NCBI RefSeq assembly: GCF_000455605.1
Contig: NC_017025.1
Span: forward strand, 1,860,001 to 1,924,000
Direction: 5' to 3'
Source: Flavobacterium indicum GPTSA100-9 = DSM 17447
GTDB lineage: Bacteria; Bacteroidota; Bacteroidia; Flavobacteriales; Flavobacteriaceae
DNA length: 64,000 bases
Made by a program: the position numbers and the translations under genes. This document shows, in pieces, positions 30,338 to 45,771 of the stretch. Numbering within the stretch: position 1 is the stretch's first letter; each line of letters starts with the position of its first letter. The notes under the pieces were generated by a model. The model was not told where the DNA came from and made no database searches. It worked only from the letters and a program-made list of their open reading frames with translations.

Positions 30338-31726
30338 ATGCAAACAGAAGCTATTTTTGAAAACATTGCAGAAAGAATAATCAAAGAAATAGATAAAGCA
30401 GAAGATTCTATCTACATAGCTGTTGCGTGGTTTACTAACAAAAATATATTTAACAAACTGCTTATTAAATCTGAAAAATGCAAAATTCAAATTATCATTT
30501 CAAATGATGAAATCAATAATAATTCATACGTAGATTTTGATTTATTAACTAATAAGAAAGCATCGATTTACAAAGTAGGAAACGGAGACACTGAATTAAT
30601 GCACAATAAATTCTGTGTAATTGATTACAACACGGTTATTACAGGATCTTACAATTGGAGCTACAAGGCAGAAAATAATTTTGAAAACATCATTATTCAC
30701 TCTCAAGATTATGAACTTGCAAATCAATTTGTAAATGAATTTAAGCAAATTGTAAAAAAATATTACCCAAAAACTGAAAATATAAATTTTGATTTATCCA
30801 TTGATAAAATTATCAAACGATTAGAAATAATCAAAAATTTAATTGTTTTAGAGGAAGTTGAAGAAATAGATACTAACACAAAAAAATTAAAAGAGCTTTC
30901 AATTAATGAAGACTTAGAATCTATTTTTTATAGTTTAACCAATAAAGAATACTCAACAGCAATTGAATTAATTCAAAAATATATCTCAAACTTTCAACAA
31001 TTAATAATTTGGGATGATCCCGAAATTTCAAGTTTAAAGTTAGAAATAAAACTTTTGGAGCATGAAATAAATGCTTTTGAAAATGAAAAATTTGATATAG
31101 AAAAAACAATTAATGTATTCAATCATCGTCATACCTTAGAATTAGGAGACCTTATTTTAGAAATATTAAATTTAAAAAAGACACTTTTTAAAGACCAAAA
31201 AGAAAAATTTAAAGAAGCAGAAGAAGATTTCAACAATTATAATAATTATTATAAAAACGAAATACAAAAAGAAGTTTTTGAAATAACTATTGAGGAAAAA
31301 AAAGAGTTAAAAAGGATTTACAAAAATGCTTCTATTTTATGTCATCCTGACAAGTTCATTAATGAACCTATTGAAATACAGCAACAAGCAGAGGAATTAT
31401 TTAAAGAACTTAATGAAGCCAACAGTAAAAACGATATTAAACGGGTAACTGAAATTTTAGAAAATTTAAAAAAAGGAATTTTACAGCCAAATGTAAGTGG
31501 TAAAATCAGTGATAAAGAACGGTTAAGAAAAACTTTGATTCAACTAAAAAACAAACTGACTCAATTAGAGAAAAATTTAAAAGATCTAAAAGAAAGTAAA
31601 ACATACCAAAGCATAATAAACATTAACGACTGGGATATTTATTTTGAACAAAATAAAGAATTATTACAAAAAGAACTAAAAGATTTGAAAGATGGAGAAC
31701 AACAGATTAATACCTTTAAACAATAG
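30338..31726 (+). CDS. PLD-superfamily nuclease domain fused to a J-domain-like segment
   Basis: 462 residues. The N-terminal about 140 residues are a single phospholipase D module with HxKx4D at H89/K91/D96 (MHNKFCVID) followed by GSYNWS, as in Nuc-type nucleases that dimerise to build one active site. The middle is helical. Residues about 320-380 (KKELKRIYKNASILCHPDKF) contain an HPDK J-domain-like hairpin. The C-terminus is a predicted coiled coil. First gene of a four-gene overlapping operon; a DNA/RNA-targeting role is inferred. Confidence 0.8.
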   Translation: MQTEAIFENIAERIIKEIDKAEDSIYIAVAWFTNKNIFNKLLIKSEKCKIQIIISNDEINNNSYVDFDLLTNKKASIYKVGNGDTELMHNKFCVIDYNTVITGSYNWSYKAENNFENIIIHSQDYELANQFVNEFKQIVKKYYPKTENINFDLSIDKIIKRLEIIKNLIVLEEVEEIDTNTKKLKELSINEDLESIFYSLTNKEYSTAIELIQKYISNFQQLIIWDDPEISSLKLEIKLLEHEINAFENEKFDIEKTINVFNHRHTLELGDLILEILNLKKTLFKDQKEKFKEAEEDFNNYNNYYKNEIQKEVFEITIEEKKELKRIYKNASILCHPDKFINEPIEIQQQAEELFKELNEANSKNDIKRVTEILENLKKGILQPNVSGKISDKERLRKTLIQLKNKLTQLEKNLKDLKESKTYQSIININDWDIYFEQNKELLQKELKDLKDGEQQINTFKQ

Positions 31727-33086
31727 TTTAGCTCTAAACCAAACAGGAATAGTTCTTGATATTACCAAAAAACTTACTCTTAATCAAAATAGAAAATTGG
31801 TAAAGGAAATATTTAATAAAAACCCAAGTCTTTTTATCAATCTCATAAGTTATTATTATCCACTAAATATAAAATTTCTGGAAAAATATGTTAAAAGTTG
31901 GAATTGGCATACTTTAAACTTTAATGAGAATTTTCCTTGGTCAATTGAATTAATACAAAAATTTGATAATCACTGGGATTGGAATTACTTAAGTGAAAAT
32001 GAAAAAATTTCTTGGTCGATTGAATTAATAGAAGAATTTGAAAATAAATGGAATTGGGATAAATTGAGTAAAAATAATAGTATTCCATGGGCAATTGAAT
32101 TAATACAAAAATTTGAAAACAAATGGAATTGGGAAGAATTAAGTAGAAATAAAAACTTACCATGGTCGCTTGAATTAATTTCAAACTTTACAGATAAATG
32201 GGATTGGCAAAATTTAAGTTGGAATGAAAGTTTACCTTGGACAATTAATTTAATAGAAAAATATAAAGACAAATGGGATTGGGGCTTTTTGAGTTGTTGT
32301 GAAAGCATACCTTGGACAATTAATTTAATTGAAAAATATGAAGACAAATGGGATTGGAACTTCAATTTAAGTAGAAATAGAAATCTTCCGTGGTCCATAG
32401 GGCTAATCAGAAAATATATAACCATATGGGATTCATATTGGTTAAGTTTAAATGAAAATCTTCCATGGTCATCACATCTTATAGAAATATTTATTGATAA
32501 ATGGGATTGGTATTGGTTAAGTAGAAATGAGTCTTTACCTTGGTCAATAGAGTTAATTGAAACTTATATTGACAAATGGGATTGGAAGAGTTTAAGCGGA
32601 AATGAGTCGTTACCATGGACAGTTGAATTAATTGAAAAATATTATGACAAATGGGATTGGGGTTATTTAAGTTCCAATGAATCTTTACCTTGGTCAGAAA
32701 GTTTAATAGAAAAATATCGAGAAAACTGGCACTTCCACCCTAATACTCCATTTAGTTCCACAATATCAAGAAACACTAAACTTCCATTAACTAAAGTGTT
32801 AATTGAGAGATATTTAGATAAATGGTTTTGGGGTTACTGGCCTGGAGGTTTTGAAGGTTTATCAAGTAATTCAGGGATAATTTTATCAAGTAATGAAATT
32901 GAAATATTTGATAAATATTGGGATTGGCCGGCTTTAAGTAATAACAAAAGTGTAACATGGACTATTGATATAATTCATCAATTTGCAGAAAAAATAGAAT
33001 CATCACCATATATATGGGATACGATAAAAGAATATGTTGATGATGTTTTAATTGAAGAAGTTTTAAAAGAAATTAAAAATGAGTGA
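31692..33086 (+). CDS. W-x-W repeat protein (about 14 repeats), unknown function
   Basis: 464 residues made almost entirely of a roughly 24-residue repeat of the type DKWDWxxLSxNESLPWSIEL followed by IEKY. I count about 14 copies, the last three degenerate, after a 60-residue N-terminal cap. It is expected to form an extended helical solenoid, perhaps a recognition scaffold. The start overlaps the PLD gene by 35 bp and the stop overlaps the next gene by 8 bp. I have no named family for the repeat. Confidence 0.75.
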   Translation: MENNRLIPLNNSLALNQTGIVLDITKKLTLNQNRKLVKEIFNKNPSLFINLISYYYPLNIKFLEKYVKSWNWHTLNFNENFPWSIELIQKFDNHWDWNYLSENEKISWSIELIEEFENKWNWDKLSKNNSIPWAIELIQKFENKWNWEELSRNKNLPWSLELISNFTDKWDWQNLSWNESLPWTINLIEKYKDKWDWGFLSCCESIPWTINLIEKYEDKWDWNFNLSRNRNLPWSIGLIRKYITIWDSYWLSLNENLPWSSHLIEIFIDKWDWYWLSRNESLPWSIELIETYIDKWDWKSLSGNESLPWTVELIEKYYDKWDWGYLSSNESLPWSESLIEKYRENWHFHPNTPFSSTISRNTKLPLTKVLIERYLDKWFWGYWPGGFEGLSSNSGIILSSNEIEIFDKYWDWPALSNNKSVTWTIDIIHQFAEKIESSPYIWDTIKEYVDDVLIEEVLKEIKNE

Positions 33087-33762
33087 CATAAAAATTGCAG
33101 GGAACTTAACTATTAAACATTGGGAAAAAACTAAGAAAAAACTCAAACCCAATTACAATCATTATTGGGATCAGGCATACGATTTTTTTGAATTACGAAT
33201 TTGCACAAGATATTTAAAGCCTATAGATACTATTTTAAATATAAAATCTAACAATGGAGAAGGTTTTGCTGTAGTTAATTTACAATGTTCACTTATTGAA
33301 ATGATTGAAAGTTTTGTAAATGGCTGGATAAATGAAGAGAATAAGTGGAAGAGAAATAATGTTGTAATAACAAATTCAGATATTGGGCTGTTAAAAAAAA
33401 CAAAAGACCCTATAAAAAATGTCGGCGTCTTTATTTCATTTTTCAAAAATAGAAGTGTTTTTCAAAAATATAATATTGAAGGTGATAAGTTTTTTTGGAA
33501 TGTTCGTTGCGCTTTATTACACGAAACACAAACAAAAAATAAGTGGAAAATCAGAAAAGACATAGATAAAACAGGATTATCATATTTAGAAAAGAAAGAG
33601 GAAAAAATTATTTACAGAGAAAATTTCCAAAGAGATTTAAAATTATTAATTGAAAATTACAAAAAAACAATAGTAAATGGAGGTAATTTCGATGGGATTC
33701 CAGCATGCGTATTAAGAGAGAACTTCATTTCAAAATTCAACCACATTTGTAAACAATCATAA
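33079..33762 (+). CDS. HEPN-like protein (candidate RNase)
   Basis: 227 residues, mostly helical. FFWNVRCALLHETQTKNKW contains R143-x4-H148, the Rx4-6H motif of HEPN ribonucleases, in the expected helix context. The rest (for example VVNLQCSLIEMIESFVNGWI) fits a HEPN helical bundle. HEPN proteins are common RNase toxins and defence effectors; catalytic activity here is inference. It lies in the same operon with an 8-bp overlap. Confidence 0.6.
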   Translation: MSDIKIAGNLTIKHWEKTKKKLKPNYNHYWDQAYDFFELRICTRYLKPIDTILNIKSNNGEGFAVVNLQCSLIEMIESFVNGWINEENKWKRNNVVITNSDIGLLKKTKDPIKNVGVFISFFKNRSVFQKYNIEGDKFFWNVRCALLHETQTKNKWKIRKDIDKTGLSYLEKKEEKIIYRENFQRDLKLLIENYKKTIVNGGNFDGIPACVLRENFISKFNHICKQS

Positions 33763-33764
33763 CA

Positions 33765-34643
33765 ATGTCAAAACTAACCGCAATTTTAGCATGGGGTTCT
33801 TTAATTTGGGACCCTAAAGATTTAGAATATAATAAACAATTAGGTTGGGTTTATGACGGTCCAGTTTTACCCATTGAATTTGCAAGGATTTCAAAAAATG
33901 GTAGATTGACATTAGTTATTACTGAAAATGGTACTTTCAATAAAACTTTCTACACATTTGCTAATATGAAATTAACCTTTGAAGAGGCTATTGAAAATTT
34001 AAGAAAAAGAGAAGGATGTAACAAAAAAGATATTGGTTTTTACAAAGCGGAAACCGATGAATTTCACTGTGAAGATTTCAAGTTTAAAGAAGAAATCAGA
34101 AACTGGTCAAGCGAAAAGAAAATTAAAAATATCATATGGACAGATTTACCTGAGAAATGGAGTTTTAATAACGAAAAGGATGAAACTGTAAATGTAAATC
34201 CAAACGAAAGAATCGAATATTTGAAAAATTTAGCAGGTAAAAAAAAAGAACTTGCAGAAAAATATATTAGAAATGCACCTAAACAAGTTAAAACCAAATA
34301 CAGAAATCTGATTGAACAAGAACTAGATTGGACACCAACAATAGAAAACAATAAACCTTATGTTAATGAATTGGTTTTAGTTGACCATAGATTAACATTT
34401 TCTAAAATGGGTTCAATTGGAGAATTTAGTTGTTTAAAATGTTATCATACAGAAATGGTTGCTTCTTATACAAGATTAAGTGAAGGCTACCAATGTCAAT
34501 CATGTGGAAAGTTTCATAACATAGAAAGAAGTGTAGAACTTCCAACTTGTAATTGTGGAGGAGAATTAGAACGAAATAAACCTTTATTTTGCCCAAAATG
34601 CAAATCATTTTCAGTAAAATTTAGTTTAAAATATTTTGGTTAA
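33765..34643 (+). CDS. Gamma-glutamylcyclotransferase-like protein with C-terminal zinc ribbon
   Basis: 292 residues. The N-terminal ILAWGSLIWDPKDL, GPVLPIEFARIS and GRLTLVI match the GGCT/ChaC-like fold. The C-terminal about 75 residues hold Cys pairs CLKC, CQSC, CNCGG and CPKC, i.e. one or two zinc ribbons. The fusion suggests binding of nucleic acid or of partner proteins rather than simple glutathione metabolism. Starts 2 bp after the HEPN-like gene; last in the operon. Confidence 0.65.
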   Translation: MSKLTAILAWGSLIWDPKDLEYNKQLGWVYDGPVLPIEFARISKNGRLTLVITENGTFNKTFYTFANMKLTFEEAIENLRKREGCNKKDIGFYKAETDEFHCEDFKFKEEIRNWSSEKKIKNIIWTDLPEKWSFNNEKDETVNVNPNERIEYLKNLAGKKKELAEKYIRNAPKQVKTKYRNLIEQELDWTPTIENNKPYVNELVLVDHRLTFSKMGSIGEFSCLKCYHTEMVASYTRLSEGYQCQSCGKFHNIERSVELPTCNCGGELERNKPLFCPKCKSFSVKFSLKYFG

Positions 34644-34687
34644 TTCATAAGTTAAAAATTCATACTAATAAACTACTTTCCAACTAT

Positions 34688-34760
34688 AGCCCCGATTGAA
34701 GCGGTTACCGTGTAAAAGCGAAAAGCGGGACTGGACTTCTTTGAAGCACCACTCTCCTGC
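34688..34760 (+). ncRNA. GC-rich structured RNA candidate (Flavo-1-like)
   Basis: An island of clearly higher GC in AT-rich surroundings. AGCCCCGATTGAAGCGG is followed by GCGAAAAGCGGGACT: CCCG (34691-34694) can pair with CGGG (34726-34729), with an inner CGG-TTA-CCG hairpin (34702-34710) and a CTTC-TTT-GAAG hairpin near 34736-34746. The AGCCCCGATTG...GCGGGA skeleton resembles elements I associate with the Flavo-1 RNA motif of Flavobacteria. Strand and ends are uncertain. Confidence 0.5.
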
Positions 34761-34810
34761 TCCTAAAAAAAATTGATTCCCGAATTATTCTATACTACTA
34801 ACTAAAGAAG

Positions 34811-34818
34811 TATCTTTG
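34811..34818 (+). promoter_or_regulatory. mnmE promoter, -7 element TATCTTTG
   Basis: TATCTTTG lies 18 bp before the ATG at 34836 and makes the longer TTG start at 34827 unlikely. Confidence 0.6.
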
Positions 34819-34835
34819 CAAAAAAATTGGTCATT

Positions 34836-36245
34836 ATGATTCCACAAGATACTATTGTTGCGTTAGCGACGCCTTCGGGTGCAGGTGCCATTGCGGTTAT
34901 TCGTTTGTCTGGAAAAGAGGCAATTTCTATTGCTGCGGAAGTTTTTCAATCGGTTTCAGGTAAAGACATAAGCAAGCAACGTACGCATACTATTCATTTG
35001 GGGCATATTGTTTCGGAAGGTAAAATTTATGACCAAGTGTTGCTTTCAATTTTTAAAGGACCGAATTCTTATACGGGTGAACATGTGGTGGAAATTTCTT
35101 GCCACGGTTCTACTTTTATTCAGCAACAAATTATTCAACTTTTACTTCGTAAAGGTGCGAAAATGGCTCAGGCGGGTGAATTTACGTTACGTGCTTTCTT
35201 AAACGGTAAACTCGATTTATCTCAGGCGGAAGCGGTAGCCGATTTAATTGCTTCCGACAATGAGGCGAGTCACCAAATTGCCATGCAACAAATGCGCGGT
35301 GGGTTCAGTAATGAAATTGCCAAATTGCGTGAGGAATTGTTGAATTTTGCTTCGTTGATTGAACTGGAATTAGACTTTGCAGAAGAAGATGTGGAGTTTG
35401 CGGATCGTTCGGCGTTTCATGAATTGCTAAACCGCATTGAGTTTGTGTTAAAACGTTTAATTGACAGTTTTGCGGTGGGGAACGTGATTAAAAACGGGAT
35501 TCCGGTTGCGATTGTAGGCGAACCAAATGTGGGGAAATCGACCTTATTGAATGCCTTATTGAACGAAGAACGTGCGATTGTTTCGGACATTGCGGGTACG
35601 ACACGAGACACTATTGAAGACGAATTGGTGATTAACGGTATTGGCTTCCGTTTTATTGATACGGCCGGGATTCGTGAAACGAAGGATGTGGTGGAAAGTA
35701 TTGGAATCCAGAAGACGTTTGAAAAAATGGAACAGGCGCAGGTGGTGCTGTTTTTAGTTGATAGTTCACAGTTCACTGCTGACAGTATAGAAAATCTGAA
35801 AATTGAAATTGAAAAGGTAAAAAACAAATATCCTACTAAAGCCATCGTCGCTATTATCAATAAAGTAGATTTATTGTCTGAGGAAGATGTGAAAAGTATT
35901 CAAGAACAACTTTCGACTTTTGACGTGCAACTTTCGACTATTTTTATTTCTGCGAAACAAAAAATTGGTATTGACGAACTTAAAAACACGTTACTTTCTT
36001 TTGTCAACACGGGTGCGTTACGAAACAACGAGACGATTGTTACCAATACGCGTCATTATGATTCGTTATTAAAGGCTTTGGAAGAAATTCAGAAGGTAAA
36101 ATGGGGCTTGGAATCGCACTTATCGTCTGATTTAATTGCGATTGACATCCGCTCGGCCCTACACTTCTTTGGGGAAATTACAGGTGAAGTCACGAATGAT
36201 GAGTTGCTTGGGAATATTTTCGCGAATTTCTGTATCGGGAAATAA
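34836..36245 (+). CDS. mnmE: tRNA modification GTPase MnmE (TrmE)
   Basis: 469 residues. With MnmG it modifies U34 of certain tRNAs. N-terminal DTIVALATPSGAGAIAVIRL, G-domain P-loop VGEPNVGKSTLLNALL, switch IAGTTRDTIEDE, DTAGI, and the C-terminal CIGK with its catalytic Cys. Two short heptamer tracts (35763-35783 and 35907-35941) are embedded in frame in the G domain and give the repeat QLSTFDV-QLST, an unusual lineage-specific insertion. Confidence 0.96.
   Translation: MIPQDTIVALATPSGAGAIAVIRLSGKEAISIAAEVFQSVSGKDISKQRTHTIHLGHIVSEGKIYDQVLLSIFKGPNSYTGEHVVEISCHGSTFIQQQIIQLLLRKGAKMAQAGEFTLRAFLNGKLDLSQAEAVADLIASDNEASHQIAMQQMRGGFSNEIAKLREELLNFASLIELELDFAEEDVEFADRSAFHELLNRIEFVLKRLIDSFAVGNVIKNGIPVAIVGEPNVGKSTLLNALLNEERAIVSDIAGTTRDTIEDELVINGIGFRFIDTAGIRETKDVVESIGIQKTFEKMEQAQVVLFLVDSSQFTADSIENLKIEIEKVKNKYPTKAIVAIINKVDLLSEEDVKSIQEQLSTFDVQLSTIFISAKQKIGIDELKNTLLSFVNTGALRNNETIVTNTRHYDSLLKALEEIQKVKWGLESHLSSDLIAIDIRSALHFFGEITGEVTNDELLGNIFANFCIGK
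35763..35783. repeat. Heptamer tract inside mnmE (1)
   Basis: AGTTCAC, AGTTCAC, TGCTGAC in frame, encoding part of DSSQFTADS. Confidence 0.6.
35907..35941. repeat. Heptamer tract inside mnmE (2)
   Basis: CAACTTT, CGACTTT, TGACGTG, CAACTTT, CGACTAT: five 7-bp units. Three units make 21 bp, giving a seven-residue protein repeat (QLSTFDV, QLST...). Confidence 0.75.
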
Positions 36246-36306
36246 AAAATCTACTCATTTATTAATTTACCTCTATAACTGATACTAATTCAATTTCATT
36301 GTATAG

Positions 36307-36347
36307 AAAACCCTAACACGTTTATTGTTGGGGTTTTGATTTTTTAG
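36307..36347 (+). terminator. mnmE terminator
   Basis: Stem AAAACCCTAACA (36307-36318) with TGTTGGGGTTTT (36326-36337, one G-T pair), followed by GATTTTTT. Confidence 0.75.
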
Positions 36348-36369
36348 GGAATGACTATTATTTTTACAC

Positions 36370-36630
36370 TTTACGGTTATCCGTAAAATTAGATTTTAAT
36401 TTATCTATAAATTTGAATTTTTGAGGAGGAATTGACAATAAGTATTGAAAACATAAGAAAAAACATTGTTTTTAATAGCTTAAACTATATTTTTTTTCAT
36501 ATTTTTGAATAAATTTTTCTTTTAAAACTAATATAAGAATTTTATCATTTATTTTAATATTATACTTTCATATTAAAGTGATGATTTAAAAAATAACAAC
36601 ATACAAATAAATTTATCTCAATTAAAATAA
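36370..36630 (+). promoter_or_regulatory. Leader and candidate operators of the dnd operon
   Basis: This AT-rich gap holds a perfect dyad TTTACGG-TTAT-CCGTAAA (36370-36387), a -7 box TAAATTTG (36408-36415) just after it, and a second dyad ACTTT-N6-AAAGT (36564-36579). If the box is used, the dndC leader is about 210 nt. The first dyad sits where a -33 element would be, so it is a plausible operator, for instance for DndB. No gene seen. Confidence 0.4.
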
Positions 36631-37953
36631 ATGGCATTAGACCTAAATTACTTAGAGAATGAAATAATTGATCAATTTCTATTTGATGATTCAAAAAGAC
36701 CATGGATTATTGGCTTTAGTGGAGGGAAAGATAGTACAATGTTGCTTCAGGTTGTTTGGAGATCTCTGTTAAAGATTGATCCTTTTTTAAGGCAAACTAG
36801 AAGAATTTATATTGTATGTAATGATACTTTAGTTGAAAATCCAAGAATTGTAAAATTTATCAATTCGACTTTATCCAAAATACAAGAAGCTGCAGTTCAT
36901 TATGAATTGCCAATAACAGTGCATCAAACTACACCTGAATTAGAAAATAGTTTCTGGGTTAAATTAATTGGATTAGGATATCCTGCACCGAATAAATTTT
37001 ATAGATGGTGTACCGAAAGATTAAAAATTAACCCAACAACAAAATTTATCACTGAAAAGATTAATGAAAATGGTGAAGCGATAATTTTGTTAGGAACTAG
37101 AAGTGCTGAAAGTTCTGCTAGAGCTGCTTCTATAAAAAAACACGAGGTAAAAGGTCAACGTTTAAGAAAACATCAATTACCAAATTCTTATGTTTATGCT
37201 CCAATAAAAGATGTTACAACAAATGAATTATGGCAATATTTAAATCAAGTGCCACCACCATGGGGAGGAACGAACAAAGAGTTAATCACTTTGTATAGGA
37301 ATGCTAATGCTGGAGATTGTCCATTAGTTATTGATGAATCAACTCCTAGTTGTGGTAATAGTAGATTTGGATGTTGGACATGTACTGTTGTCAATAAAGA
37401 TAAAAGTATGGAAGGACTAATTGAAAATGGAGAGGAGTGGATGTCTCCATTAATGGAAATTAGAAATTTTTTAGTTGAAACTAGAGACAATCCAGAAAAA
37501 TATAGACAAAAAGAGAGAAGAAACAAAACAATATCTGAAAACCTTTGGGGGCCTTATACTTTTAATACAAGGGTTGAAATATTGACCAGAATTTTAAAAG
37601 CGCAGAAAAACATTCAAAAAGAAGAAGGTGTAGAATTAATTACACATCAGGAAATGGTTTTAATACAGTATTATTGGTATAGAGACTGTTTCTTTAAAAC
37701 AAGGGTATCGGATATTTATAATTCTATTTACAAAACTAAAATCGATATGAGTAAACAAGAAGAAAAATTCAAACAAGAATCTGACTTATTGAAAGAATCT
37801 TGTAAAAATGAACAGAAAGATGTTGACTTAATTCAAGATTTGTTGGCATTACAAAAAACAAAAACCTTAATGATTCGTAAACGAGGTTTACAAGCTGATA
37901 TCGAAAATAGACTTGACCAGTATCTTGAATCGGATAAAAAATCTAATAATTAA
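36631..37953 (+). CDS. dndC: DNA phosphorothioation protein DndC
   Basis: 440 residues. PAPS-reductase-like ATP pyrophosphatase that activates DNA for sulfur insertion. P-loop SGGKDST (S30-T36); Cys residues C127, C230, C241, C248 and C251 (SCGNSRFGCWTC) can hold the Fe-S cluster known in DndC. FYRWCTERLKI and GTRSAESSAR are typical. The C-terminal about 100 residues are helical. First gene of the operon; dndD follows 1 bp after its stop. Confidence 0.93.
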   Translation: MALDLNYLENEIIDQFLFDDSKRPWIIGFSGGKDSTMLLQVVWRSLLKIDPFLRQTRRIYIVCNDTLVENPRIVKFINSTLSKIQEAAVHYELPITVHQTTPELENSFWVKLIGLGYPAPNKFYRWCTERLKINPTTKFITEKINENGEAIILLGTRSAESSARAASIKKHEVKGQRLRKHQLPNSYVYAPIKDVTTNELWQYLNQVPPPWGGTNKELITLYRNANAGDCPLVIDESTPSCGNSRFGCWTCTVVNKDKSMEGLIENGEEWMSPLMEIRNFLVETRDNPEKYRQKERRNKTISENLWGPYTFNTRVEILTRILKAQKNIQKEEGVELITHQEMVLIQYYWYRDCFFKTRVSDIYNSIYKTKIDMSKQEEKFKQESDLLKESCKNEQKDVDLIQDLLALQKTKTLMIRKRGLQADIENRLDQYLESDKKSNN

Positions 37954-37954
37954 A

Positions 37955-40051
37955 ATGACAATTAAAGAAATAGAATTAAATAATTTTAGAATCTATAAAG
38001 GGTCTAATCTTATTGATTTATCTAACATAGATGATAAAAATATTTTCGTTGTAAGCGGAAGGAATGGGTTTGGTAAAACGACTTTTTTAATGTCGTTGGT
38101 ATGGTGTTTGTATGGTAGACAAATGCAAGATGTTGATGATATATACAAAAAAGAAATCGACGACCAAGGTGGTTATGGAAAATACATTGGAAATTCTCTT
38201 AATAGATTAGCTAAATCTGAGGACGACTATAACTTTCATGTATCTATTACATTCACAAATGTCAACATACCAGAAGTACCTTGTAAAGAAATTAGAATAA
38301 AAAGAAGCTATAATGCTAAAACAAGTTCATCAGAAGATGTTGAAGTTTTAATTGATGGTTATCCAAGTGAAATTGCTAAGGAAGTAGGACCTGAAATTTT
38401 TATTCGTGAATTTATTATGCCAATTGAAATTGCAAAATTTTTCTTTTTTGATGCAGAAAAAATTGTAAGTCTTGCAGAAGTAAATACTCCAGAACAAAAA
38501 AGAAAGTTGAGCAAAGCTTATTCTGAAGTTTTAGGAATAAAGAAATATGAGGATTTGAAAGGGGAACTAGAGGGTTTACAACTGAAGTTAAGACAAGATA
38601 CTGCAAGTGCTACTGAAAAAAGTCAACTTCGTATTTTAGAAGCAGAACATCAAAATTGCGATGATAAAATTAAAGATAACGAGACTAAAATAGCTGAATT
38701 ACGTGAAAAGCGTAGTGAAAAAAATAAAGAGTCAAGAGATATTCAAGAAAAGCTAATTAAATCAGGAAGTTTAATAACTGTAGAGGAACTTCATGAATTA
38801 AGAAATCAAGAGGAAGAATTAACTAAAAGACAAAACGAACTTCAAAATCAATTAAAGGAATCCTATGATATCATTCCTTTTGCTATTGCAGGAGAAAAGT
38901 TCCTTGAAGTTAATGACCAATTAGAAAATGAAACAAACTTTAAGGCTGCAAAATTTAAAGATGAAAACGTAAAAGGAGTTACTAATAAAATATTAACCGA
39001 TCTGACCAAAGAACCTAAGCCTGAAGATTTGGTAATTGATTACAAGGTTGAACGTTATTTCGCAGATGCTTTCGAAAAATTAATTCGAAAACACTTTTTC
39101 TCTGATACTCCTGATTTACCGACAGATTTTAAAATGCTTTTAGAATTTTCTGATTCAGAAAAAAATGAATTACAAGCATTACTAAATAACATTAAGTACT
39201 CTTTCAAAGAATCGTTTAAACGTATCACTTCTGAATACAACCAAACCAGAAATGATTTGAATTCGATTCGTAAAAAAATTAGAGATGCGGAGACCAATCA
39301 AGAAAGTCCAATGATTACTGAGTTTAGAAATCAAAAAGAGTTGTTGGATAAAGAAATTATTGGAATTGATGCTACAATAGATTCATTAAATAGAGAAATT
39401 GGTGAATTTATTAATGAACGAACTCAGAAAGGAAAACGAATCGAAGAACTTTCTAAAAAACTAAATGTTTCTGAAAAGAATAAAGCTAAAGATGAGTTGA
39501 TTACAAGGAATATTGGTCAGCTTAAGGATTTTATTGAAAAATTCAAATCGAAGAAAAAAGAATCTCTTGAAAAACAGATTTTAGAAGGATTAGAAACCTT
39601 ATTACACAAAAAAGGATTTGTTAAGAAAGTTGAAGTTGAAATCATTGGTGACACTATTGATATCGTTTTAAAAAATGTTCGTGGTGAAGAGATTAAAAAA
39701 GAGTCTTTAAGTAAAGGTGAACAGCAGATGTATGCAACTGCTTTACTACGCGCTCTAGTTGAAGAAAGTGATATTCAATTCCCAGTATTTATTGACTCCC
39801 CAATGCAGAAATTTGATGAACAACATGCGGAAAATATTGTTAAGTATTTTTATCCTAACATTTCAGATCAAGTTGTTATTTTCCCATTGATTAACAAAGA
39901 GCTTACTGAGAAAGAATACAATATTTTATCGAATAATATTGCAAAAACTTTCTTAATCAATAACATTCATGAAGATAAGAGTGAATTCTTACCTCTAGAA
40001 CCAAAAGATTTTATTTCAACATACAATAAAATGTATAACAATGCTAATTAA
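37955..40051 (+). CDS. dndD: DNA phosphorothioation ATPase DndD (SMC/Rad50-like)
   Basis: 698 residues from MTIKEIELNNFRIYKG. Walker A SGRNGFGKTTF (about 34-44), long central coiled coil (about 200-560), ABC signature LSKGEQQM (about 585) and Walker B PVFIDSP. DndD is thought to open or nick DNA for thiolation. The longer ORF start at 37913 lies inside dndC and is rejected. Overlaps the next gene by 11 bp. Confidence 0.92.
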   Translation: MTIKEIELNNFRIYKGSNLIDLSNIDDKNIFVVSGRNGFGKTTFLMSLVWCLYGRQMQDVDDIYKKEIDDQGGYGKYIGNSLNRLAKSEDDYNFHVSITFTNVNIPEVPCKEIRIKRSYNAKTSSSEDVEVLIDGYPSEIAKEVGPEIFIREFIMPIEIAKFFFFDAEKIVSLAEVNTPEQKRKLSKAYSEVLGIKKYEDLKGELEGLQLKLRQDTASATEKSQLRILEAEHQNCDDKIKDNETKIAELREKRSEKNKESRDIQEKLIKSGSLITVEELHELRNQEEELTKRQNELQNQLKESYDIIPFAIAGEKFLEVNDQLENETNFKAAKFKDENVKGVTNKILTDLTKEPKPEDLVIDYKVERYFADAFEKLIRKHFFSDTPDLPTDFKMLLEFSDSEKNELQALLNNIKYSFKESFKRITSEYNQTRNDLNSIRKKIRDAETNQESPMITEFRNQKELLDKEIIGIDATIDSLNREIGEFINERTQKGKRIEELSKKLNVSEKNKAKDELITRNIGQLKDFIEKFKSKKKESLEKQILEGLETLLHKKGFVKKVEVEIIGDTIDIVLKNVRGEEIKKESLSKGEQQMYATALLRALVEESDIQFPVFIDSPMQKFDEQHAENIVKYFYPNISDQVVIFPLINKELTEKEYNILSNNIAKTFLINNIHEDKSEFLPLEPKDFISTYNKMYNNAN

Positions 40052-41603
40052 TATTAGAACATCAGAGGCAAATAAAGCAGTTGTCCAAGAACTTACAAGA
40101 AGACTTAATTTAGGAACTGAAAATGTTGTTTCTAGAATCGCTTTCTCATACTCTATCTCAAAAAATATTAAATTAGATTTAGAAAAAGATCTATTTGATA
40201 GTAAAGGGAAAGAATATAAAGATGATATTTTATTTGGAAAATATAGAGAGTATTACATTGCTTTAATTTGTCAGCATTACGGACTTTACAAAACAGATAA
40301 GGATATTGGAAAATATATCAAAATGCATATTGATCATGGTTTAACTTTGATGAATAAACTTTTTGAAGACAATAAAAACTATTCAGGTTTAGATTTTCTA
40401 TTAGAACATATTGAAACAGGAATTGAAAAATTAGAAGAGAGTCAAGTTTCAAATGATGCCATCATTTTTGATGAACATACGAGAAAAAACAGAATCGTTA
40501 ACAAGGATTACTTTGCTGAAAGCATCAAAATTTTAGTTGGTAAATCATTTGAAGAGGAAGAAATTAATTTCTATTTAAACGACACTTCAATTCATAATAA
40601 TGCGCATATAGCAGTAGCAGGAAATTCAGGAACAGGAAAAACATATTTTGCAAATTCTCTTTTAAAACAAGTAGTTAAGGAAAGTAAAGGACAGGTGAAC
40701 TTTATATTTCTTGATTTCAAAGGAATAACTGAAGAGGATGAGAAAAAGAACAGTGAGTTTTTTAATTCAACTAACTGTGAATTGATTAAAGCACCACACA
40801 AACCTTTTCCAGTAAACCCATTATCTTTTATTGACAACATCAATGAAAAGAATAAAATTATGGGGATTAACAAGTTTGTAGATATTATCACTAGTTATAG
40901 TAACATTGGTAAAAACCAACAACAAACTTTAAAAGATGCCACCCGTGATGTTTTCAATAGCAAAAAAGGGAATGAATATCCTTCATTCAAAGAGATTTAT
41001 GAAAAGGTATTAGAATACGAAGGAGATAAAGCAAGTACCTTACGTGAAATATTAGAAAGTTTAAGTGAATTGGATTTATTTGAAACTAAAGCAGACAGTA
41101 AAAATAGTTTCTTGAACTCTAATTATTATTTAAGTCTTTCTGGAGACTTGCCAAAAAATGTTCGATTTACATCGGTGTTTTTAATCATCAATTATATCTA
41201 TAATACGTTTATGAATATGGATAATGCCCCAATTGAAGGCAACTATCAAGGGATGCGTTATGTATTGTTAATAGACGAAGCTCATACTATTTTCAAAGAA
41301 AAGAAATCACAAGATTTATTAGAAAAGATATTGCGTGAAATTCGTTCAAAAGGAGTTTCTGTAGTTTTATTGTCACAAGGAATTGAAGAATTCAATCAGC
41401 CTTCATTTGACTTTAGTAGTATGTGTGAAACAGCCTTTTTGTTTGACATTAAAGACAAAACCAACTTAAAAATGATGCAAAAGTTCTTAGGAATTGGTGA
41501 CAAAGAAGCGTTGAAGCTTAAATCGAGTATGGAAAAAATTCAAAAATATCAATTGGTTTCTAATCTTAAAGAATTTAAGGTTGGGGAGCTTTTTAAAGCA
41601 TAA
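40041..41603 (+). CDS. DndE domain fused to a HerA/FtsK-type ATPase
   Basis: 520 residues. Residues 1 to about 115 match DndE (IRTSEANKAVVQELTRRLNL, VVSRIAFSYSIS), which normally stands alone at about 110-130 residues and binds nicked DNA. The rest is a P-loop ATPase: Walker A AGNSGTGKT (about 193-201), Walker B VLLIDEAH (about 408-415), SKGVSVVLLSQGIEEF. It resembles the HerA/DptH-like DNA translocases of Dnd restriction modules. The fusion would join modification and translocation functions. Confidence 0.85.
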   Translation: MLINIRTSEANKAVVQELTRRLNLGTENVVSRIAFSYSISKNIKLDLEKDLFDSKGKEYKDDILFGKYREYYIALICQHYGLYKTDKDIGKYIKMHIDHGLTLMNKLFEDNKNYSGLDFLLEHIETGIEKLEESQVSNDAIIFDEHTRKNRIVNKDYFAESIKILVGKSFEEEEINFYLNDTSIHNNAHIAVAGNSGTGKTYFANSLLKQVVKESKGQVNFIFLDFKGITEEDEKKNSEFFNSTNCELIKAPHKPFPVNPLSFIDNINEKNKIMGINKFVDIITSYSNIGKNQQQTLKDATRDVFNSKKGNEYPSFKEIYEKVLEYEGDKASTLREILESLSELDLFETKADSKNSFLNSNYYLSLSGDLPKNVRFTSVFLIINYIYNTFMNMDNAPIEGNYQGMRYVLLIDEAHTIFKEKKSQDLLEKILREIRSKGVSVVLLSQGIEEFNQPSFDFSSMCETAFLFDIKDKTNLKMMQKFLGIGDKEALKLKSSMEKIQKYQLVSNLKEFKVGELFKA

Positions 41604-41607
41604 TGAG

Positions 41608-42060
41608 ATGGGAGATAAAACTAAAAATATATTTATTACAATAGCGTATTTCATTTTTGCAATTGCCTTTTTAAGTTCTTTGGGGATTTGGTTACCTATG
41701 GCAATTGACAATTACAATTTAGATGGAATTTCAGATGAAACTTTCAAAACATTACCAAGTAATTTATTGACTTATTCTTTAGGAATTTTTTTAATAGCTA
41801 CTATAGATAGAGTTTTATTTTTATTTTTCAGAACAGGTGAATATAGTAATAATATACTTGAATTTTTTGCAATATTATTTTTGATTTGTGGAACAGGATT
41901 CCTAGTTTTTGTATCATTAAAATCGATAAAAAATTCAAGTATAGATGAAGCACTTAAGTATGCTAAATATATTACTGTTATAGCTTGGGCAGCATGGTTT
42001 TATGTAAAACTTCAAGCGTCAAAATCGAATAATTTTTCACCAATAGGAGGTATACTATGA
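41608..42060 (+). CDS. Four-TM protein inside the dnd operon
   Basis: 150 residues with about four membrane segments (IFITIAYFIFAIAFLSSLGIWL, LLTYSLGIFLIATI, ILEFFAILFLICGTGFLVFV, ITVIAWAAWFYVKL). It starts 4 bp after the DndE-ATPase stop; longer starts fall inside that gene. It ends in an ATGA overlap with dndB. No family recognised. Tight coupling argues that it belongs to the system, perhaps as an abortive-infection or sensor part, but that is speculation. Confidence 0.75.
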   Translation: MGDKTKNIFITIAYFIFAIAFLSSLGIWLPMAIDNYNLDGISDETFKTLPSNLLTYSLGIFLIATIDRVLFLFFRTGEYSNNILEFFAILFLICGTGFLVFVSLKSIKNSSIDEALKYAKYITVIAWAAWFYVKLQASKSNNFSPIGGIL

Positions 42061-43286
42061 GTTTTAAAGAATTATACGCAATTAGAGTTTCACAGCCACT
42101 TTGTGATTTTTATGTAACTTCAATATCAGCTACAGATTTGCTTAAAATTTCATTTTCTGAGCAGTTACAATATGTTGATGAAAAAGGTAAACTTCAAGGG
42201 AATCAAAGAAAAGTCGATGATAAAAGACTGAAAGAGATAGGTAGATATATAGATTCAGTTGAAATGTCTTTTCCAAATGCAATAATTTTAGGTGCAAATT
42301 ATAATGAGGATGGCGAGATAATAGAAAATGAAGAAATTAGATGGTCCTTCGAACAAGTCGAAGGGAATTTATTTAAAATAATAATACCCTCGGATGCTAA
42401 GTTAGCATCAATAATAGATGGTCAACATAGATTAAAAGGTTTTGAAGATAAGTATTTAACAAATAAATCTAGATTAAATGTTGATTTACCTTGCTCTATT
42501 TTTTTCGATTTACCTAATTCCTATCAGGCATTTTTATTTGCAACAATTAATGGTAATCAAAAAAGAGTTGATAAGAGTTTAGCATTGGAACAATTTGGTT
42601 TTAATGTTGATGATGAGCCTCAACATACATGGACTCCTGAGAAACTTGCAGTATACTATACTCGTAAATTAAATTTTAAAGAGAGTCCTATTTCAGGTCA
42701 TATCAAAATTGCACCAAAAATTGATAAGGATTTAAAAAAACAAATTTTCCAAAAAGAAATTGAATGGACAATATCAACAGCAACTATAGTTGATGGTATT
42801 CTTAGTCTAATTACTTCAAATCCAAAAAGAGACAGGGTTGAAATGGCTCAAGAAAATATTTGGGGAAAACGCTCAAGAAGTATGGTTGAAAAATTCAAAT
42901 CTGATAAATCCCCTCTAAGAAATGAGTATTTAAATAAAAAGGATGATTATATTTACGAAATTATAAATAACTATCTTTCAGCTGTAAAAGAAACTTTGTG
43001 GGAGGATTTTGATTCAAAATCATATATATTTAAGACAGTTGGTATTCAAGCTCTTTTTGATTTATTAAGAAGAATCCTTTTAAAAGAAAAGATTTCTGAA
43101 AAAAGTCAGTTCATTAAATATCTAACACCAGCATTGAAATTTGACTTTAGTAGTAGTAGTGTTCAAGCATCTGGAATAGGACGAAAAGACATACGAAATG
43201 CATTATTACTTTCATCTGGAATAATTAATGAGGATATGCTAACCGATAATGACAACAATAAAATTAAGGATTTTATACGTAAATAG
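42057..43286 (+). CDS. dndB: DGQHR-domain protein, DndB-like
   Basis: 409 residues with the diagnostic ASIIDGQHRLKGFE (about 118-131), followed by CSIFFDLPNSYQAFLFATINGNQKRVDKSL, as in DndB/DndB-like DGQHR proteins. DndB represses dnd operons in characterised systems. Here it is the fifth gene of the operon rather than its first. Overlaps the upstream gene by 4 bp and the downstream one by 1 bp. Confidence 0.88.
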   Translation: MSFKELYAIRVSQPLCDFYVTSISATDLLKISFSEQLQYVDEKGKLQGNQRKVDDKRLKEIGRYIDSVEMSFPNAIILGANYNEDGEIIENEEIRWSFEQVEGNLFKIIIPSDAKLASIIDGQHRLKGFEDKYLTNKSRLNVDLPCSIFFDLPNSYQAFLFATINGNQKRVDKSLALEQFGFNVDDEPQHTWTPEKLAVYYTRKLNFKESPISGHIKIAPKIDKDLKKQIFQKEIEWTISTATIVDGILSLITSNPKRDRVEMAQENIWGKRSRSMVEKFKSDKSPLRNEYLNKKDDYIYEIINNYLSAVKETLWEDFDSKSYIFKTVGIQALFDLLRRILLKEKISEKSQFIKYLTPALKFDFSSSSVQASGIGRKDIRNALLLSSGIINEDMLTDNDNNKIKDFIRK

Positions 43287-44599
43287 TGAATCATCATCTA
43301 AACATATTTCGTTTTTTTAACGAAAACAATTCTGTAGAATTTATTGAAAATAATTTAAGTAGAGCTTTTTCAATTAGCTTGTTAAACTCATCTATATTAT
43401 TCAATGACTTTTTAAAAACTATTATTTCAGAGGAAGATTATAATTATCTATTTTCGGTATTCAACAATGAAGATGCATTATTTGAAATTGACTTACAAAT
43501 CGATACCGATTATATTGATCGAGATGCTTTCAATAAAGTGTATGCAATAGCATTGACAGAACATAGGCTAAACATGGATGATTTCTTTCAGCAAAACCAT
43601 GTAAAAAAACAAAACCTTACAGACATAGTTATCAGCATAAAAGATATACTTATTGTTATTGAAGTTAAAAAATACAATCATGATTGTAAATGGCAACTTT
43701 TTAATCAAATCTATCCATTTATTAAAGACGATTCTTTTAATAACAAAATAACTCCTAAAAGTATTTCATGGAGTGAAGTTGTTACTTTGTTTGAAAAAGT
43801 TAACAATGTAGGTCGATTAACAAATTCAGAATCTCCATTTTTAAGAGATTTTTTAAAATACGCTTCTTATCACAGACCTAATTGGTTTAATCCAAAGCCT
43901 TTTAATACTGTTAAATTTTCGACGACAGGTCAAAATGCTCATAGTATAACTCAAAGATTAAAGCAAGCTCTTTCAAAATGTAAATATCCTTTACTAGATT
44001 ATTCTGATCGATTAGGAGTGGCTGTTCCTTTTCATTGGGCAAGTGAAATTATACCTCACTTGTATCATTATGAAAACGATAAAATCAAAAATTATATAGG
44101 TTTTTGTATTTGGCCTGGTAATACTAAAACACAAGGTTATTCAGTTTATAACAAACCATTAGATTGGGTGAATAAAAATAACTTAATGATAAATGGTAAA
44201 GATTATGAGTTAGAGATTGTTTATGATCTTAAATTTAGCCATTTTAATAAATATCTAACTAATTTTCAATATACAGAAAATGATGTTCAAGAGGTCTTTC
44301 ATTCTAACAAATACTTTCACGAGTTCTCAGGAAAATGGAATATTAATCAATGGAATGAATTTGAAGAATTTTTAGATTCAAAATTTAAAAAAGAATTTGA
44401 TTGGAGATCGAAGTGCAATTGGGAAAACAAATTAATTAACACGGATAGAACCTATTTTACAGTTTCTTTTGGATATGAAGTCTGTGTGTTTATTCCTTAT
44501 AGTGAATTTATGGAATTAGATAAAAAAGAAGACGATATTGAAAAAGTTACAAATTTTGTTAATTCAATAATCGACTCTTTACAAAACCTTTTAAATTAA
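43286..44599 (+). CDS. PD-(D/E)XK nuclease-like protein of the dnd locus
   Basis: 437 residues. LTDIVISIKDILIVIEVKKYNHD has D113 and E126-V-K128 in the order and spacing of the PD-(D/E)XK core, after an N-terminal helical region. The C-terminal about 300 residues are unassigned. Start is GTG at 43286, overlapping the dndB TAG by one base. It is the best candidate for the restriction nuclease of this locus, since DndF/G/H are absent. Convergent 4-bp overlap with dndA. Confidence 0.65.
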   Translation: MNHHLNIFRFFNENNSVEFIENNLSRAFSISLLNSSILFNDFLKTIISEEDYNYLFSVFNNEDALFEIDLQIDTDYIDRDAFNKVYAIALTEHRLNMDDFFQQNHVKKQNLTDIVISIKDILIVIEVKKYNHDCKWQLFNQIYPFIKDDSFNNKITPKSISWSEVVTLFEKVNNVGRLTNSESPFLRDFLKYASYHRPNWFNPKPFNTVKFSTTGQNAHSITQRLKQALSKCKYPLLDYSDRLGVAVPFHWASEIIPHLYHYENDKIKNYIGFCIWPGNTKTQGYSVYNKPLDWVNKNNLMINGKDYELEIVYDLKFSHFNKYLTNFQYTENDVQEVFHSNKYFHEFSGKWNINQWNEFEEFLDSKFKKEFDWRSKCNWENKLINTDRTYFTVSFGYEVCVFIPYSEFMELDKKEDDIEKVTNFVNSIIDSLQNLLN

Positions 44600-45771
44600 A
44601 AAATCATAGCTCTTAATCCTGCAACAACTGTTTTAACCTGATTGATAACTATATTAAGTTCTTCTTTTGTATTATATTTTCCTAATGAAAAACGAATACT
44701 ATTGAAAGCATGATTTTCATCTAAACCCATTGCAATTAGAACGTGTGATGGGTCAATACTGGTTGAAGTACAAGCACTACCGTTACTCACAGCTATCAGA
44801 GGTAAATTATTTTCAGGATTGCTTAAACCCATTATAACGGCTTCGCTGTCAGCACCTACAAAACAAATATTTGTTACATTGTAAAGACGGTTTTTAGTAT
44901 CTCCATTGACAAATGAGTTTTCAATTGTTAATAATTGAATTTCCAGATAATCTCTTAGCTCTTTTATTTGTTTTAGATTTTCCTCTAATTCCTTTTGAGC
45001 CAACTCACAGGCTTTGCCTAAAGCCACAATTCCTGGCACATTAAGTGTTCCGCTTCTTAATCCTCTTTCATGTCCACCACCATGAAGCAACGCAGGTATT
45101 TTAATTCTGTTTGCACGTTGTCTAACATATAAAGCACCAACTCCTTTTGGAGCATATATCTTATGTCCACTGAAGCACAATAAGTCTATTCCTAATTCAT
45201 CAACATTTAGTTCTAATTTACCAACTGCTTGAGTGGCATCAGTCATAAAAATTGCCTCAACTCCATGTGTTAATTCAGCAAGCTCTTTGATGGGTTGAAT
45301 TACTCCAGTTTCATTATTAACCATCATCACAGAAACTAAAATAGTATCTTCTCTTAACTGTGATTTGAAAAGATCTAAATCAATTAAACCGTTTTTTTGA
45401 ACTGGTAAATAGGTAACTTCGAATCCTTTAGTTTCTAAAAATTTGCAAGTATCTAAAACTGCACTGTGTTCCGTTTCAACCGTAATAATATGCTTTCCTT
45501 TATCTGAATAACTTTCCGCAACACCTTTTATTGCCAGGTTAATAGCTTCTGTTGCTCCGCTAGTGAAAACAATTTCATTTGTTTCTGCACCTATAATTTC
45601 TGCTACTTGTTTTCTTGCTTCTTTAACAGCATTATATGCCCCAACACCAAACTGATGTGTACTATTTGCATTGGCAAAATTTGTGGTTAAATAAGGCAGC
45701 ATTGCATCCAAAACTCTTTGGTCTATTTGGGTAGTTGCATTGTTATCTAAGTATATTAATTCTTTATTCAT
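44596..45771 (-). CDS. dndA: Cysteine desulfurase DndA (IscS/NifS-type)
   Basis: 391 residues. PLP enzyme providing sulfane sulfur. MNKELIYLDNNATTQID, the PLP lysine in CFSGHKIYAPKG (K204), and the catalytic Cys in VSNGSACTSTSIDPSHVL (C334). Its position back-to-back with the dnd operon supports DndA rather than a housekeeping IscS. Transcribed toward the operon from its own promoter, with a convergent 4-bp overlap. Confidence 0.85.
   Translation of the reverse strand: MNKELIYLDNNATTQIDQRVLDAMLPYLTTNFANANSTHQFGVGAYNAVKEARKQVAEIIGAETNEIVFTSGATEAINLAIKGVAESYSDKGKHIITVETEHSAVLDTCKFLETKGFEVTYLPVQKNGLIDLDLFKSQLREDTILVSVMMVNNETGVIQPIKELAELTHGVEAIFMTDATQAVGKLELNVDELGIDLLCFSGHKIYAPKGVGALYVRQRANRIKIPALLHGGGHERGLRSGTLNVPGIVALGKACELAQKELEENLKQIKELRDYLEIQLLTIENSFVNGDTKNRLYNVTNICFVGADSEAVIMGLSNPENNLPLIAVSNGSACTSTSIDPSHVLIAMGLDENHAFNSIRFSLGKYNTKEELNIVINQVKTVVAGLRAMIF

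Follow-up and report, generated by a model that had tools for sequence, protein, structure and literature searches.

The dnd locus of Flavobacterium indicum

Here we present a predicted phosphorothioate (PT) modification locus of the Dnd type from Flavobacterium indicum GPTSA100-9 = DSM 17447, whose genome is a single contig of 2.99 Mb. The window, meaning the whole 64,000-nucleotide stretch of DNA that was analysed, holds the dnd genes at positions 36631-45771. New here are a recurrent two-gene unit encoding a protein with transmembrane (TM) segments and a protein with a DGQHR motif (the TM-DGQHR unit), a putative nuclease family shared with type I restriction-modification (R-M) systems, and the exchange of downstream genes behind a constant core across eight loci. 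The + strand from 36631 to 44599 holds six genes without meaningful gaps, and dndA converges on them with a four-base overlap at the end of the nuclease gene. The predicted products, with lengths in amino acids (aa) and the matches that name them, are as follows:

36631..37953, + strand: dndC, PP-loop sulfurtransferase, 440 aa (TIGR03183, PADLOC DndC)
37955..40051, + strand: dndD, SMC/ABC-type ATPase, 698 aa (TIGR03185, PADLOC PbeC)
40041..41603, + strand: dndE-herA fusion, 520 aa (PF08870, PADLOC DndH, PDB matches)
41608..42060, + strand: membrane protein with four TM segments (4-TM), 150 aa, gene 1 of the TM-DGQHR unit (hydropathy, homologues)
42057..43286, + strand: DGQHR_dnd_1 protein of the ParB/sulfiredoxin superfamily, 409 aa, gene 2 of the TM-DGQHR unit (TIGR04172)
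43286..44599, + strand: putative PD-(D/E)XK accessory nuclease, 437 aa, GTG start (invariant residues, PF14281 in relatives)
44596..45771, - strand: dndA, cysteine desulfurase, convergent (TIGR03235 score, identity to sister dndA)

The intergenic distances are +1 (dndC/dndD), -11 (dndD/dndE-herA), +4 (dndE-herA/4-TM), -4 (4-TM/DGQHR), -1 (DGQHR/nuclease) and -4 (nuclease/dndA on the opposite strand). A packed operon of dndC, dndD, a DndE-ATPase gene, a 4-TM gene, a DGQHR gene and a PD-(D/E)XK candidate, with dndA convergent to it, was what the initial annotation had read from the letters, and coordinates, gaps and family matches confirm it; its gene positions stand as well, except for two starts, corrected here to 37955 for dndD and to an ATG at 41608 for the 4-TM gene. 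Because the same core recurs in other genomes, the operon is not a chance arrangement. By locus, the named species closest to it are Flavobacterium psychrolimnae and F. hydrophilum, and GC content is 28.9% across 36246-45771 as against 31.8% for the window outside 31601-45771.

Profile searches against the Dnd and Pbe families bear out the names given to the core genes, with DndC, DndD and DndE over Pfam or TIGR cut-offs and an ATPase of the DndH type. DndC reaches 447.4 bits on TIGR03183 (cut-off 290.4) and 501 bits on the PADLOC DndC model, and it carries an SGGKDS PP-loop at residue 30 and cysteines at 230, 241, 248 and 251. DndD reaches 285.7 bits on TIGR03185 (cut-off 245.85), has PbeC as its top PADLOC model (714 bits), keeps the Walker A, signature and Walker B stretches and lacks a C-x-C; among solved structures it had no match below E 0.001. 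In the fusion, residues 5-106 make up the DndE part, which scores 81.5 bits on PF08870 (cut-off 25) and, on the stricter TIGR03184, 43.1, which is below the cut-off of 71.85. The HerA/DndH-type ATPase follows at about 132-504, where the PADLOC DndH model matches with 99 bits through model residues 1308-1694, and it has Walker A at 194 and Walker B at 409. The fusion matches DptH (7es4, E 3.4e-12) and DndE (7x4e, E 7e-4) in the PDB; on plasmids six records matched it, none of them covering 80%.

DndA scores 422.3 on TIGR03235, where the cut-off is 480, and IscS- and NifS-type models score higher, likewise under their own cut-offs. Three sister Dnd loci, L007, L008 and L074, also have a convergent dndA, to which the gene shows 81, 74 and 74% identity, respectively. 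Of 150 sampled genomes of the genus, 24 had a dndA match at E <= 1e-110, and the best match in the 149 other genomes is 59%. This argues against a housekeeping gene that lies nearby by accident; judged by sequence identity, dndA probably belongs to the Dnd system, in support of the earlier claim of a Dnd locus with its own dndA.

The initial annotation was also right that DndF and DndH are missing. The DndF model TIGR03238 is silent in this genome (G000) and in G372 and matches in the genomes G080 and G374, the G080 match being the first gene of a PADLOC DndF-DndG-DndH run (L085). The full PADLOC DndH of G080 (1743 aa) finds here only the ATPase half of the fusion, via its residues 1360-1715. 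For DndG, TIGR03237 gave no match here, a result that has no positive control, and no genome-wide DndG search was made.

A constant core and a changing cassette

We compared eight loci that have dndC and a fusion 53-92% identical to that of the window (the window's own, L007, L008, L056 and L074-L077), leaving out two distant fusion loci (L059 at 30% and L087 at 27%) and an incomplete one (L078). All eight keep dndC, dndD and dndE-herA. What follows this core is, by locus:

Window: TM, DGQHR, nuclease
L007: TM, DGQHR, a relative of the L008 restriction endonuclease (REase), a 90-aa protein, nuclease
L008: GHKL ATPase, Methyltransf_35, Mrr-type REase, a 100-aa protein, nuclease
L074: relatives of the first three genes of L008, a 260-aa protein
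L075 and L077: TM and DGQHR only
L076: a GIY-YIG-like protein below cut-off, a DndB-family protein
L056: DGQHR, a 319-aa protein that matches no Pfam family

The nuclease is found in three of the eight (the window, L007 and L008) and the TM-DGQHR pair in four, while L056, L075 and L077 have no recognised nuclease; the flanking genes of L075 and L077 that were scanned encode a peptidase, an HTH protein, a glycoside hydrolase, a DUF4007 protein and two proteins without a match. Of the six-gene order, the dndC-dndD-dndE/herA part recurs and the genes downstream differ, and we favour a modification core with interchangeable effectors. The initial annotation had the DndFGH restriction arm replaced by the fused ATPase and a different nuclease. 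What holds of this is that DndF is gone and that DndH is present only as an ATPase; what finds no support in the form proposed is the fused ATPase as a restriction arm, with the nuclease confined to those three of the eight fusion loci. Since the core is kept while the rest is exchanged, and three loci lack a recognised nuclease, the comparison lends such a replacement little support.

In the alternative cassette (L008:6629-9699, L074:9898-12960), whose genes were identified by scanning in L008 and via similarity in L074, the Mrr-type REase has a weak HARE-HTH match. DndE is joined to a motor elsewhere as well. On alphaproteobacterial plasmids, genes annotated as 'DNA translocase FtsK' (L118:1098-2621, L124:9474-11000 and L115:10376-11866) encode a DndE stretch ahead of an FtsK-type motor; the stretch passes the Pfam cut-off for DndE in L124 and L115 and falls below it in L118. 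This is apparently a fusion event separate from the HerA type. A further relative, with no dndC match, occurs in L057, L058 and L079-L084 (fragmented in L083 and L084), where a gene for a protein of 637-745 aa precedes those for a DndD-like ATPase and a DndE-HerA fusion; the one such protein that was scanned has matches to RNA polymerase alpha-CTD, to sigma-70 region 4 and to a helicase-associated family.

The TM-DGQHR unit and the nuclease in other loci

The DGQHR protein scores 469.6 bits on TIGR04172 (DGQHR_dnd_1), over the cut-off of 450, and its motifs are intact (NQR at 49, DGQHR at 121, FATIN at 161). PF14072, the DndB superfamily, is its only Pfam match, with no HNH or DUF1524, and a search of solved structures gave nothing below E 0.7. 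TIGR03233, the model for true DndB, gives no match to it up to E 0.1; the annotated DndB of L116 scores 445. The silence of TIGR03233, together with a TIGR04172 score over the cut-off, rules out a displaced dndB. On three plasmids (L116, L119 and L120), from Rhizobium leguminosarum, Aliivibrio wodanis and Pseudoalteromonas shioyasakiensis, a gene of the DGQHR_dnd_1 kind adjoins an annotated dndB. What had been described as a DGQHR dndB in an unusual fifth position is instead DGQHR_dnd_1, a different paralogue seen beside true dndB in other loci and paired here with the 4-TM gene.

The 4-TM protein has 16 homologues, and three of its segments lie over the threshold of a simple hydropathy window, which is not a trained predictor; the fourth was counted by the initial annotation. 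In 22 of 29 DGQHR loci a protein of 141-228 aa with 3-4 predicted TM segments is encoded just upstream on the same strand, and such pairs occur in both Bacteroidota and Proteobacteria. The 29 are made up of nine loci (the window's own included), L007 with L075 and L077, 16 plasmids and one phage, which contribute 6, 3, 13 and 0 TM partners. The plasmids are 16 of 20 listed DGQHR records (H8, H14, H15 and H20 were left out, and 15 further records exist), and in one of the records (H5, E. coli H240) the DGQHR gene was taken as two open reading frames (ORFs). The annotated dndB genes of L116, L119 and L120 are outside the 29, as are four further DGQHR-motif genes: the DndB-like ones of L059 and L076, a 739-aa one in L060, and one in L110 that is cut at the locus end. 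Across 50 loci, 8 of 13 DGQHR-motif genes (L059 and L076 among the 13; L060 and L110, with no close same-strand upstream neighbour, excluded) have such a TM protein encoded immediately upstream on their own strand, no more than 60 bp away, as against 4 of the 179 other genes with products of 250 aa or more, a difference that the Fisher value of 1.5e-8 overstates because many of the 22 are related and share locus ancestry. The 22 pairs stand in the following contexts:

Dnd loci: the window's own, L007, L075, L077, L109 (dndC, dndD, dndE) and L116
DndE-FtsK loci: L118 and L124
DndFGH: L085 (PADLOC), L119 (annotation), L120 (dptG annotated) and L117 (by eye)
Pbe: L113, L114 and L115 (PADLOC)
Type II R-M with annotated BglII/BstYI-type enzymes: L121, L122 and L125
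Adenine methyltransferases: L126 (annotation) and L106 (PF02086)
Modification gene not recognised: L107 (HEPN-like neighbour) and L108 (Schlafen AlbA_2-like neighbour)

When the TM proteins of the window's Bacteroidota set were aligned by hhalign with those of the proteobacterial plasmids, the probability was 96.8% (E 2.5e-10), and it was 92.0% (E 6.5e-7) once L075 and L077, the two intermediate rows, had been removed; 11 of 11 and 6 of 8 rows of the alignments contain a G-[IVF]-W stretch. By this profile comparison the two sets are one family. The TM proteins of L117 and L126 are outside all alignments.

Homologues of DGQHR_dnd_1 come in forms of about 408 aa and of 518-549 aa, with at least 515 aa in 34 of the 120 listed (P0173-P0256). 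A fusion of the TM and DGQHR genes does not explain the long form, which has no TM segment in its first 200 residues; as the DGQHR motif sits at the same place in both forms, the extra residues are C-terminal, and this extension has no Pfam match in the three long homologues scanned. Neighbours of the pair include a HEPN pEK499_p136 gene (L107:8972-9481), a Schlafen AlbA_2 gene (L108:10477-11442) and a convergent DUF4007 gene (L077:11706-12245). A second kind of pairing is seen in L127, L128, L129, L130 and L056, where a DGQHR protein of 324-355 aa is followed by a partner of 294-325 aa; the partners in L128, L129 and L130 are clearly interrelated, and the neighbours of these pairs include a NotI-type R-M system and an inovirus.

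The nuclease of the window has no Pfam family match of its own and no match to a solved structure below E 0.2, but it belongs to a family of 129 proteins at E <= 0.001. Among the 120 listed, those with an organism name are from Bacteroidota, and the locus search adds two contigs of Verrucomicrobia metagenome-assembled genomes. The stretch TD-x6-D-x5-E[VIL]K is kept in 110 of 113 listed homologues of at least 400 aa, and E21, D113, D120, E126, K128, Q137 and Q141 are invariant in 28 aligned homologues, three of which match PF14281 (PDDEXK_4), at best with E 6e-5. The putative active-site residues are assigned from the known PD-(D/E)XK motif.

We examined 23 further nuclease loci, 19 and 4 from two locus sets. 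Type I R-M genes lie close by in eight (L017, L018, L020-L023, L102 and L104), HsdR is present in seven of these, and nine Hsd proteins were confirmed with Pfam. In six (L018, L020-L023 and L102) the nuclease lies between hsdS and hsdR, with 1-5 other ORFs in the interval, and its start falls on the final base of hsdS in L020; in L017 hsdR comes after the nuclease and the contig ends on the other side, and in L104 the nuclease is ahead of hsdM and no hsdR was recognised. Dnd loci account for 3 of the 23 (L007, L008 and L013). The other 12 have neither Dnd nor type I R-M in view, four of them (L009-L012) with less than 3 kb on one side; L014 and L015 have the same run of neighbours, and L024 and L025 are copies in one genome. 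A nuclease specific to PT systems is ruled out by these counts. A nuclease found next to HsdR cannot be just a stand-in for the restriction subunit that a PT system lacks, and we see it as a general accessory. Outside the 23, a Vibrio plasmid (L123) has a relative with 28.6% identity and no Dnd or Hsd gene annotated nearby, and searches of viral contigs and phage records with the nuclease led nowhere. In two of the type I R-M loci the gene after the nuclease encodes about 185 aa (L020:11341-11898, L102:7931-8479); its product has a weak GIY-YIG match in L020 and looks similar, by eye, in L102.

How the operon may act

Parts of this picture have been reported. A DndE fused to HerA or FtsK, Dnd loci without DndFGH and diverse nucleases nearby are described in PMC10853773, according to which PT loci without DndFGH are common. 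Compared by layout, the operon resembles the HerA 'clade 3' Dnd systems of that study (Rakesh, Aravind and Krishnan 2024), in which DndE and HerA/FtsK form one chain beside a DndD-related ABC ATPase and which, as a subset of PT loci, are decoupled from DndFGH and have nucleases nearby. In the main text of the study 'transmembrane' appears a single time, as part of a cited title, neither 'HsdR' nor the literal 'type I R-M' appears at all, and the sections compared contain no TM-DGQHR unit; in a wider search, with subscription papers, preprints and supplements outside it, neither the TM-DGQHR unit nor this nuclease family turned up as already described. The operon is like DndFGH (DptFGH) in that its ATPase half is homologous to the ATPase domain of DndH, and unlike it in lacking DndF and the rest of DndH. 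It is like IscS-DndBCDE-DndI and SspABCD-SspE in combining PT modification with a ParB-superfamily protein, the DGQQR of SspE standing against DGQHR here (PMC13251355), but unlike SspE and DndI its DGQHR protein has no HNH or DUF1524 match and has a membrane protein as its partner. As in PbeABCD / CxC, DndD scores highest on PADLOC PbeC; unlike those systems, it has no C-x-C, no operon protein matches PbeA, and DndC is present.

The reading we prefer, to which we give about an even chance on the sequence evidence, is a PT-modification operon of the published DndE-HerA-fusion subtype, in which the downstream genes would be an interchangeable effector cassette. The operon as a whole would label the DNA of its own cell with sulfur, marking it as self. 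If roles carry over from the known Dnd families, DndA would give the sulfur, DndC would activate and transfer it, and DndD with DndE-HerA would locate the sites. The fused HerA motor most likely powers scanning or translocation of the modification complex; that it serves DndD and DndE is argued by its fusion to DndE and by the FtsK-type motors likewise fused on alphaproteobacterial plasmids. The DGQHR protein would probably sense the modification state of the DNA, or its failure, through NTP hydrolysis, and would then activate the 4-TM protein to bring about growth arrest or death of the infected cell, while the nuclease would probably cut unmarked DNA or act as a back-up effector. The sensor-effector step is modelled on SspE and DndI, in which ParB-superfamily domains sense PT: in SspE the DGQQR domain is a GTPase that is stimulated by PT and licenses the nuclease of the protein (PMC13251355), and DndI shares the DUF262-HNH layout of SspE (PMC11662687). 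An NTPase sensor is suggested by this GTPase relative together with the conserved QR, DGQHR and FxxxN motifs, which have been described for the ParB/sulfiredoxin superfamily (PMC4619093).

More tentatively, and with somewhat less confidence than we place in the operon as a whole, we regard the 4-TM and DGQHR genes as a possible undescribed, mobile two-gene anti-invader unit, in which an NTPase would read the modification state of DNA and fire a membrane effector. Such a unit would combine with PT systems (Dnd, Pbe, DndFGH) as well as with methylation-based R-M, with the PD-(D/E)XK family as a parallel accessory common to PT and type I R-M systems. How PT loci without DndFGH protect the cell is the question that this effector role addresses. 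If true, it would explain protection in loci without a nuclease, would tie the sensing of modification to membrane killing in PT and methylation systems alike, and would give R-M systems a membrane-based abortive arm; the shared nuclease bears on the exchange of parts between R-M and PT systems. Several points weigh against the reading we prefer. Seven of the 29 DGQHR loci have no TM partner (G099, G261, G210, H17, H18, H19 and H28), and 11 of 33 have none (22 of 33 with) if the four further DGQHR-motif genes are added. Nine TM partners, those of L007 and L085 among them, have no detectable homology to that of the window (11.7%, 5.6% and 0.4%), which leaves two possibilities: a very divergent family, or a position filled on more than one occasion. 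NTP hydrolysis by the DGQHR protein, its binding of PT and its contact with the TM protein are all steps that we infer by analogy.

The pair could also be regulatory, since its relative DndB is reported to be a transcriptional regulator (PMC10853773). The DGQHR protein would then repress or tune the operon as DndB does, the 4-TM protein would tether it to the membrane or sense envelope stress, and the nuclease would be the sole effector. DGQHR_dnd_1 does lie in the DndB superfamily (PF14072), and in an operon without a true dndB the place of a regulator is free, but on plasmids L116, L119 and L120 the gene adjoins an annotated dndB, and in L121, L122 and L125 it stands beside type II R-M with no dnd gene annotated in the stretch; we find a regulatory pair unlikely. 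Doubtful to much the same degree is a restriction arm made of the HerA ATPase and the PD-(D/E)XK nuclease, in which the ATPase would translocate unmodified DNA to the nuclease as the DndH domain does. The fusion is kept without this nuclease in L056 and L074-L077, the nuclease occurs in many fusion-less loci, including type I R-M with HsdR, and the DndE-FtsK plasmid fusions point to DndE or DndD, not to the nuclease, as the partner of the motor; on the other side, the fused ATPase is homologous to that of DndH, DndF and DndH are otherwise absent, and fusion, nuclease and dndA occur together in two other Flavobacterium species (L007 and L008). Least probable, and in our view a long shot, is a modification-only locus, where PT would act in the regulation of genes or in redox protection and the cassette would consist of passengers or addiction-like modules: L056, L075 and L077, without a recognised nuclease, would suit it, but the six genes overlap tightly and both parts of the cassette are associated with R-M systems.

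An attachment site formed by a repeated 3' end of mnmE was not found, the last 16-24 bases of that gene occurring only once in the window. A search for the empty site beside the AMP-ligase gene matched in 5 of 121 genomes, our own included, and the short loci of the four relatives (63-66% identity) hold neither mnmE nor dndA. Upstream of mnmE, several genes in a row at window positions 30338-34643 have the look of accessory genes; judged by eye, they encode a phospholipase-D-like protein, a WDW-type repeat protein (no Pfam over cut-off) and two hypotheticals, and the GC content of 31692-34643 is 27.9%. In L008 a gene that by eye is tyrosine recombinase-like adjoins dndA (L008:12592-13812), which suggests that the Dnd island is mobile there.

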